Shown here piece by piece: positions 17,301 to 20,300 of a stretch of 64,000 bases of DNA. The translations under genes were made by a program, and so were the position numbers. Within the stretch, counting starts at the first letter, position 1. Every line of letters starts with the position of its first letter. Source of the DNA: Norana najaformis (lineage: Eukaryota; Annelida; Clitellata; Crassiclitellata; Hormogastridae); assembly GCA_964023275.1 (NCBI GenBank), contig OZ029928.1:13954802-14018801 (forward strand). The letters run 5' to 3'. The notes beneath the pieces were generated by a model. That model made no database searches, was not told where the DNA came from, and worked only from the letters and a program-made list of their open reading frames with translations.

Positions 17301-20300
17301 ATAACTTTAATTGTCTTTTTGTTTACTGAAAAGCTTCTGCAAGGATTGACCTGGTTTCACTGGAAGCAGATGGAACTACTACCACGTCTAACATAAAATT
17401 AACGTAATTTACCAAAATAAAAATGACACAATTTACAATTTTTGGAAAATGAGGTATGATTTGTAAAGTAAAACCAAAATGATTTAGCCAAAAAGTTTTG
17501 GGTCATAAAATTTTTTTTATATGAGTTGACTACTATGCTCTTTCAGACTTGATTTTATGTAGAGTTGGCGAGTTAGCTGGTCTTGATGACACAGAATTTG
17601 TGTGGCACTGAGAAATTTCCAAGATTTACATTACATTACTTTATTTGTGAAATTCATGCACAGACGGAGGAAGACGAAGGGCATCAGTGGCAGAAGTCTC
17701 TCTACAAGAAAATCAGTAAGAAGAGTCCGGAGAACAGCGAAATGACGACAGACTTCGCAATTTCAAGAATCCTCGCCATGGCTAAAGTTCTCCATGGGCT
17801 CCACCTGGTGAGCATTTCTGCTTCAACTTTGCAGTAGACGGCTTATCGTCACTGTGTATGGTTGGTGAATCTTTACTGGCTGCCTTAGTACTGTGAGAAA
17901 TGTAGCGAAACTGGACGTAGCACTACTTCAAAGAATTTTCTCTGTGGTGTTTAGGGGTTTTATTCTATTATTCTATTTTATTTTATTAGTATTAATTGAT
18001 CTATAAAGTTTAAGCGAAATTTGTTCAGCCAATGGTTTTCATAGCCTTTCAGTTTCATCTTCTGCTCCCAGTTTCACCTTCTAATCTTTTTGTCGTTTCT
18101 GGCAATTCTTATGTGCCATTTAAAATGCAAAAAAGCCTTTAAGATATGACTTGTTATCCTCTGTTATTTCCCATGGATGCTGCCCTTTGACCTGACTCAT
18201 TTAATCACTCAGGAGCCTAATCTCCACATTTTCACTTGCCAAATCCATGTTACTGTTTTCAGTCAATCTTCTGTGGTCATCCCAACTTGATTTTTCTTAC
18301 CTTTTTTACTGTAATTTCTTTCAGTCTAACTTTGATCCGGTTTGAATACTTGCTTGTGCTGACTTGATCATTTGAGTAAATTATTTTCGTAATTAGGATA
18401 TTCAGATGCTTCTGGCAAATTCACAGATGCAACCATTTAATCAAGCTTAAATTGGCTTTTTATAGCATGTGCCCAGTGATGATTGCTTAACCTGCCTTTT
18501 GAGCTTTTTTATTTTAAAGCTATTGGGTTTTTAGTAATGATGATTTCTTGATATTTTCTTACATTTATGCTAAATATTTAATAACAGTGAAGCAGAATTA
18601 CTAAAGTAACTGTTCATTATGCAGAGTTACAAGGTCAAGTCTTAGTAATCCACGACTGCTAATAATAGAGTAATGGTCTTTATACAGTATGTTTTATTTT
18701 ACATTTTATGAGCAACTATGGTTAAGGGTATTGTCAACTGATGAATGGTTTGTTTCTGTATATACTGCATGGATATTTTCTGCTTAAATTTTAATACCTA
18801 TGGACATGCGGTTTAAAACTCTTATTTATGCGGGTTCTCATTTTATTTCATTTAGCATGGTTTTTTTCAGTTTTTCAATCTCTTTCCATCGCCATTATGC
18901 TGCCTCATCCTTTCTGATTTCAACTAAACTCTAAACAGTTTGATTAACGATTCTAATTACTCAAATGATCTCATTTTCTTCTCTTTTAATCATGATCCTG
19001 CCTTTCGTTGCCCTCCCATTTTCTCATTTCCCATTTTCTCATTTCCCATTGGTCATTTTACTTTTACACATATTTTGCAAATAGTACTGTCAACTTTATT
19101 TTTGATCTGTCTCTTTGTAGTTACTCAAATCTCTTCTTAACTTCTCTAATACTGCTCACATCTTTTGCAAATTATGCCCCTGCTTTATATTTCATCTGGA
19201 TGTTTCTGGTGTCCGATCATGTCTTTTGTGAAATTTGTGAATACGCCCCTCTGCATGATCTGTTAAAACTTGGTCTTAGTTTCTCGTTGAGGATATCAGA
19301 GTCCCGAACCTTATCGTTCTTAAGTTGAAAGGACCTTCATTATTATGAATTTCTTTTCACACATTCTTGATGCCTTGTGCTTTAGATACATGTGTCATGT
19401 TAGTACTTCAGTTAGTTTGTATGATTCTAGCGTATGATGCTTGCAGAAAAAACGAGTTAGTATTTAAGTAAGAAAGTTCAGAGGCACCACTGTATCAGAT
19501 TAATATTGAAAATTTTATTTTGAAGAATTCTAATATTATTCATCAGTTTGCCAATGGTTTCATAAATTTTAATTTGCTAAGCCTTTAGCATAATTTGTCT
19601 TTCAAAATTCATAGAGATTGGCAAATTGTAGTGAAAAATGGTGAAATAGTAGTTAGTGTGAACCTTTAAATGGTGTCTTTATTTTTTATATTTATAGCTA
19701 GATAATTAGAGATGTTTTTGTGTAATTATTGTTTTAAACTCTGCATGATTTACCATGAAACACTCGGTGCAAAAACTATGAACTTTACTGCTGTGAACCG
19801 ATCCTAGGTAACATGTAACACAGTTAACTTAGACTAAACCCAGTAGTGTGATGCAGACAGATGTGCGTTAGCTTAGATCGATGTGCATGTAAGCCTGCAT
19901 CTGTTGTTTTCTTTTTATCTTGCATGGACTGGTACTTAGGTGGAGCATCCCTCTAGCTTAATGGCAATGGCTTGGAAGAAGCTCGTGTCATCGCAGAGAA
20001 AGCGAGCCATAATGTCTTGTTTTAGAATGGCACCCGTCTACAATCTCCCGCGGTAAGTGGTTTAGCCTGTCTACAGGGCATGTAGTAGTTTCGACGTTAT
20101 TTCTGAAATCGTTTATCGTCGCCAGGTGGAGCATCCAATGTCGGACATGGAACAGCAGTGGCGTAGGGCTGTTTCTTTGCAACGCAAGCGCGCTGTCATG
20201 GCTTGCTTTCGAATGATCCCGCTTTACAATATTTCGAGGTTAGGTCTTGCTTCTTCACTTTCACTTATTAGCATAGTAATCTTAATCTCCAAATTTCTAA

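Follow-up and report, generated by a model that had tools for sequence, protein, structure and literature searches.

A tandem pair of likely alternative exons for the calmodulin-binding helix of an RyR gene

We found in an RyR gene two adjacent exons, named here A and B, which are most likely an old tandem duplicate of the exon for the main calmodulin (CaM)-binding helix. They lie at positions 19940..20052 (A) and 20126..20238 (B) on the plus strand of the window, that is, the whole stretch of 64,000 nucleotides that was analysed (C16:13954802-14018801 of a 608-Mb assembly in 17 contigs). This belongs to a reading to which we give a probability of around 0.7, namely that both copies have been kept as mutually exclusive alternatives that tune the CaM control of RyR; we infer from the sequence that they are expressed, that they exclude each other in the RNA and that the swap changes the effect of CaM. 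A and B thus appear to be real tandem alternative exons of the RyR gene, and their alternative use is likely. If the reading is true, one RyR gene could vary the action of CaM by splicing and so make differently regulated channels.

Anatomy and reading frame of the exon pair

Both exons are 113 bp long and encode 37 whole residues and the first two bases of an Arg codon, both have intact AG/GT ends, and both are entered in phase 0 and left in phase 2. The intron between them (20053..20125, plus strand) has 73 bp. These coordinates, lengths, phases and splice-site ends are as the original prediction had given them, and the homology that it saw was also there, since 22 of the 37 residues and 67 of the 113 bases (59% of the DNA) are identical in the two copies; only its segment length of 38 residues has to be read as 37 and a split codon. 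The donor of A, GTAAGT, is strong, whereas that of B, GTTAGG, is weaker and has a pyrimidine at +3.

Regarding the flanking exons, the downstream one (exon 16, 21181..21274, plus strand, 21 residues) takes phase 2. The likely upstream RyR exon (exon 14, 17664..17807, plus strand, its start being an estimate) ends in phase 0 with ..AKVLHGLHL, has the donor GTGAGC at 17808 and a candidate acceptor at 17662-17663. Its position was set from its donor and from the way in which the joined frame fits, as well as by eye; its alignment with RyR2 3513-3563 is not significant (score -3.5), and no match to it appeared in the tblastn search of the locus with an RyR1 sequence.

With this predicted upstream flank, the joins 14-A-16 and 14-B-16 are open, whereas 14-A-B-16 and 14-16 run into stops. 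Because the length of 113 bp is not divisible by three, the use of both copies or of neither gives premature stops and probably decay of the mRNA, so that the expected break of the frame was borne out, and exclusivity would be enforced at least by the frame. The passages of Pillmann et al. (2011, PMC3228551) on mutually exclusive exons name several features which we looked for in the pair: the lengths are the same (113 and 113 bp), the splice-site types and the phases agree, no in-frame stop occurs (again with the predicted upstream flank), and the proteins are homologous over the 22 identical residues mentioned above (BLASTP E values of 5e-14 and 1e-13).

Identity, age and relatives of the two copies

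When the two segments were compared with solved structures by phmmer, RyR2 3575-3611 was matched by A (E value 2.9e-9) and by B (1.4e-7), and both also matched RyR1 3610-3645 and the isolated peptides 2BCX, 6Y4O and 6XXF. The proposed alignment with the CaM-binding peptide of RyR1 (3614-3643) is therefore supported for both copies. A degenerate pattern fitted to the two of them occurred twice in the window and never in 100 shuffles, and its core had no occurrence in the viral or in the prokaryote collections, as expected for an animal gene.

The anchors of this CaM-binding segment (CaMBD2) are present in A and B as W12 and F28, in the 1-17 spacing and with the basic QRKRA between them; anchor roles of the Trp and the Phe in the CaM site of RyR are described in parts of PMC9168041 and PMC6340113. 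Besides Trp, Phe and QRKRA, the copies have in common a Val at the place of L3624 and a Cys at the place of C3635. It had been claimed that Trp, QRKR, Cys and Phe are kept and that the copies differ in WKKLV versus WRRAV and before the Trp, and this is what we see, with KKLV in one, RRAV in the other and different residues ahead of the Trp.

The duplication seems to be old. Synonymous sites are near saturation (pS 0.74, pN 0.32), the third base is the same in 18 of 37 codons, and only 1 of 7 shared fourfold sites agrees. In a simulation in which all sites changed at the third-position mismatch rate, none of 20,000 copies stayed open with at least 22 identical residues, the best having 19.

Relatives were sought in public contigs with the frame of exon B, which yielded 14 protein fragments. 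Nine of them are B-like, with 81-91% identity, although several nearly duplicate one another, so that about six are distinct; the other five are of a canonical type and lack the B signature. All nine B-like fragments fit the pattern E(Q/M)QWR(K/R)AVS(L/M), 14 further residues, and (V/L)YN(L/I)SR, and an Asp stands two residues before that Glu in all seven fragments that reach so far. Three of the B-like fragments are incomplete at the start, P0008 and P0009 without the first seven residues and P0010 without the first four. In the tree, which has only 38 columns, the B group stands apart from A, from the canonical group and from the vertebrates (UFBoot 94, FastTree 0.97). Exon A as query returned no full-length homologues, and none turned up within the length range of a 110-residue query; this speaks against an equally wide distribution of A, though A has few exact words in common with the other sequences. 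The homology search that had been proposed for the exon was thus productive for B, with B-type segments in 9 of the 14 fragments, and found no relative of A.

These data bear on whether one of the copies could be a relic, rarely or never transcribed and kept by chance. Exon A would be the candidate, as it has drifted before the Trp (LMAMA) and found no relative when used as query. Nevertheless, splice sites, phases and frame are intact in both copies in spite of the near saturation of the synonymous sites, the simulation never reproduced such a pair, and B-type segments are present in several sources. B is unlikely to be dead because 9 of the 14 fragments carry the B-specific segment, while the conservation of A is less well supported than that of B, as the searches with A found nothing. 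We consider the relic explanation very unlikely and keep the reading of two maintained alternatives. Accordingly, the original prediction of tandem alternative exons that swap the CaM-binding segment stands as regards anatomy, RyR homology, frame logic and the existence of B-type segments elsewhere, and the alternative use is the part that we hold as likely.

Proposed exclusivity, calmodulin control and precedents

The donor of A scored 10.0 and that of B 6.4, with 20 and 119 respectively of the 3685 GTs of the window scoring higher; these scores come from generic frequencies. None of the 62 intron estimates obtained for other parts of the RyR gene (minimum 184, median 653 bp) is as short as the 73-bp intron; these estimates cover only neighbours with near-contiguous alignments and count a few introns twice where two contig ends overlap. 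The branch point of the 73-bp intron is guessed at 54 or 63 nt from the donor. Both the short intron, possibly by steric hindrance, and the weaker donor of B may help exclusivity.

The weak donor of B may even be conserved. The residue after the Arg at the exon end is Ser in 9 of 9 B-like fragments, which implies a C at position +3 of the donor, provided that the GT is at the same place; the B exon of the window has a T there and exon A an A. Among the canonical-type fragments, four of the five proteins stop directly behind the exon, the outcome expected from GTAA or GTGA, and the fifth continues into the next exon. In these fragments the donor bases are read from protein letters, and the end of a protein may be the end of a contig.

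The early stops and the weaker donor could also be explained by regulated unproductive splicing, where one copy serves as the regular exon and the role of the other is mainly to silence the gene through stops and decay. The products with both copies and with neither do have early stops, and B has the weaker donor. However, a pure poison exon needs no RyR-like protein, and the nine B-like fragments keep the helix together with the B signature. We regard such a switch as quite unlikely to be the main role of the pair, and it can coexist with mutually exclusive use.

A further contribution to exclusivity could come from pairing of the exon-14 donor with the acceptor of A or of B. The donor region 17798..17811 (plus strand), a speculative candidate for a shared docking site, is complementary in 13 of 14 bases to the acceptor region of exon B at 20119..20132 (plus strand), and it pairs more weakly with the acceptor of A. 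Over 17900-22000 its best partners were the windows at the B acceptor, followed by the A acceptor. When the codons were reshuffled synonymously, the observed energy was reached in 1 of 2000 cases for B and in 11 of 2000 for A, two controls which are not independent because A and B have their first 11 bases in common. Over 8-33 kb of the window, B was still the best partner and A fell outside the 15 best of 4971 windows. Part of Ivanov and Pervouchine (2018, PMC6071210) describes systems in which one complementary site faces duplicated partners and the RNA structures compete. The likeness lies in the one site facing a partner at each copy; unlike the systems described there, the candidate pairing involves coding sequence along with splice sites and is known from one species. 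As splice sites would lie within it, it could equally repress, and we take it as only a speculative lead toward docking control of A and B.

With respect to CaM, the copies differ more on the side of the Trp. Identity is 8 of 16 residues in the N-terminal part against 15 of 22 in the C-terminal part. B has Asp and Glu five and three residues before the Trp and, three residues behind it, an Ala in place of the Leu of A and the vertebrates. The charge of residues 5-11 is +3 in vertebrates, +1 in the canonical type, 0 in A and -2 in B. According to the relevant part of PMC6340113, the C-lobe of CaM is anchored at Trp3587 of RyR2, where a change to Ala lowers the affinity about 30-fold, and Ala in place of Phe3603 has a marginal effect on it; in RyR1, the mutations W3620A and L3624D change the CaM control, as reported in part of PMC7204063. 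We place the putative effect at the Trp side because Trp3587 dominates the affinity and A and B differ more there. The anchoring of the C-lobe would be weaker or altered in B channels, which would then be held or inhibited more weakly by CaM, or at another Ca2+ concentration, although the direction of this predicted shift could be wrong. On the other hand, A and B do not differ at either anchor or in the Val at the L3624 place, and for this reason the difference in CaM action could be small. The Trp and the Cys, the places where vertebrate mutants lose CaM-dependent regulation, are the same in both. On balance a CaM-tuning role of the swap is plausible from the residues that change.

It is also conceivable, though rather unlikely, that A and B are alternatives whose swap serves another property of the helix, such as channel packing, S100-type partners or Cys redox. 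The identity of the main CaM anchors fits with this, and in vertebrates the segment 3614-3643 is described as a self-modulatory domain and the effects of S100A1 are lost in L3625D (part of PMC7204063). Against it, A and B differ more densely near the Trp, which is the dominant anchor of the C-lobe, and the Cys is in both. We therefore keep CaM tuning as the preferred role. If it is right, the two natural segments, which change residues round the main CaM anchor and keep the rest, are a natural test of which residues set the inhibition. Different CaM action is achieved in mammals on the products of different RyR genes, as part of PMC8301844 reports.

Tandem exons in RyR genes have precedents. 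Alternative splicing at the CaM site is mentioned for insect RyR in section 3.3 of Troczka et al. (2018, PMC6026295), a passage which does not state the sequences, the copies or the function; here A and B are explicit, and two further pairs are described below. The original prediction knew of no report of this swap. This has to be corrected as regards that mention, and it holds in so far as a sequence-level report of the A/B pair, or of the other two pairs, was found nowhere in the open-licence literature among the matches listed. The pairs may be already annotated in genome annotations or in subscription literature. In the part of PMC6026295 on the SPRY2 domain, 21 of 26 insect species have mutually exclusive exons, and this pair is under developmental control in the moth and in the fruit fly that were studied (parts of PMC3787966, PMC3989282, PMC4204029 and PMC5778984). 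The insect pair and ours are alike in being tandem exon pairs in an RyR gene, but the insect one is at another site, at about residues 1135-1173, and we looked for a pair of this type in the present RyR gene and detected none.

In Drosophila, RyR has the alternative exons 10/11 and 22/23, with isoform differences in the developing muscle (part of PMC13171102). The fly has two such sites in one RyR gene, as the present gene would have several. It would be a guess that exons 22/23 are at the CaM site, as the relevant passage of PMC13171102 does not state their location in the protein. Furthermore, swaps of tandem exons are described for 12 families in vertebrates, arthropods and nematodes, and RyR is one of them (RYR3, Ryr and unc-68; part of PMC9741552). 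The sites within RyR are not given in that part, while we have three candidate sites including the CaM helix. Thus, tandem exons in RyR are known in fly, worm and human, the A/B swap has a precedent of its kind, and its novelty is moderate.

Further exon pairs and the state of the locus

We scanned for other pairs by comparing 112 tblastn segments, some of them redundant and those under 18 residues skipped, with 5 kb on each side. Three tandem exon pairs came out, A/B included, together with domain repeats, a 9-residue repeat and an inverted copy of exon 16. A self-comparison gave the same pairs, the nine rows listed comprising three exon pairs, one domain repeat, three rows of one low-complexity cluster, one repeat-like match and one row with two short open frames described below.

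The second pair has its copy a at 33329..33427 (donor GTGAGA) and its copy b at 33585..33683 (donor GTATTC), both on the plus strand, 99 bp long and in phase 0/0. The original prediction made no mention of this pair. Its copies have 33 residues, of which 25 are identical, and are 157 bp apart, so that this intron is also below the 184-bp minimum mentioned above. Copy b matches RyR1 4212-4244, a segment that we take to be the one named U-motif. It spans the place of E4239, with a Glu in both copies; in RyR1 this residue belongs to the TaF domain and the caffeine site (part of PMC9168041). The second pair would therefore offer the same kind of natural test for a segment with a caffeine-site residue.

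The third pair is outside the window, on the minus strand, at C16:13898016-13898114 (99 bp) and C16:13897455-13897556 (102 bp), with 21 of 32 compared residues identical. Its second copy has a weak match to RyR2 539-568 in the N-terminal domain (E values from 0.0005 to 0.009). As the exon lengths in the second pair and in the third are divisible by three, the frame alone permits the use of both copies. A possible but doubtful extension of our reading is that this one RyR gene swaps segments combinatorially at three sites (N-terminal, CaM helix and TaF/U-motif), giving at least eight channel types, with the exon-14 donor as a shared docking site. The repeat-domain matches at 13893 and 13891 kb were also considered as alternative exons and were set aside as known internal domain repeats of RyR. 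Two short open frames that resemble each other (16 of 23 residues) are found on the minus strand at C16:13862928-13862999 and C16:13863466-13863546, within the C-terminal portion of the RyR locus, and may be repeat or exon-like.

Regarding the locus itself, the tblastn search with the RyR1 sequence gave matches to segments of it between residues 17 and 4245, as well as to its C-terminal region, spread over three contigs and with stretches unmatched. Exons from the N-terminal domain to the pore (C16:13857.8-13860.9 kb) are thus present at one locus, in an order broken by the scaffolding. The N-terminal and pore exons are on the minus strand, whereas the middle part, including the window, is on the plus strand. 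The strand changes coincide with joins of 10 N at C16:13867240, 13924900 and 13993792 (window 38991-39000), and the exons for RyR1 1636-1876 are present twice, on two contigs and in opposite orientation. Because of these joins and the duplicated contig end, the simplest reading is that the scaffolding flipped the middle contig and put it in the wrong place. A second RyR gene, suggested by the pore being on the other strand, seems less likely, since the contig joins and overlapping ends explain the arrangement better, although the matches elsewhere in the assembly given below leave some room for further RyR genes. A gene model built on the present assembly would break at these joins.

Such a locus raises the question of whether A and B come from two alleles or two loci that the assembly placed next to each other, as the 10-N joins at three places and the duplicated contig end show that it looks mis-scaffolded. 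However, the pair is about 19 kb inside one gap-free contig (C16:13924910-13993791), its copies are only 59% identical in DNA, and when the genome was searched with 79 residues of 14-B-16 (5 candidates scored), there was one A/B locus among the matches listed. We consider an artefact of this kind extremely improbable and continue to read A and B as a genuine tandem pair. The four matches listed in that search were all at this locus, namely B, exon 16, A and a fragment of exon 16 in inverted orientation. The latter, at 24813..24905 on the minus strand, is a near-identical partial copy in a later intron, with its acceptor end altered; it could pair with exon 16 in the pre-mRNA, and it is possibly a recent DNA duplication.

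Elsewhere in the assembly, a third match to PF06459 (RyR TM4-6; locus L011) is found at C12:12932565-12932906 on the plus strand, with 27.5 bits against a cut-off of 25.1 and two stops inside, and is perhaps an IP3-receptor relative or an RyR remnant. The weaker pore matches on C1, C8, C9 and C10 are probably IP3-receptor genes.

Three other features of the window were observed. A gene with a POU domain and a homeodomain (Pfam Pou, E value 6e-38) lies at about 47277-47714 on the plus strand, past the contig join. At 4524-5110 on the minus strand, the self-comparison showed an array of similar short open frames with a spacing of about 31 bases, and at 13435-14188 both strands are open and have internal repeats.
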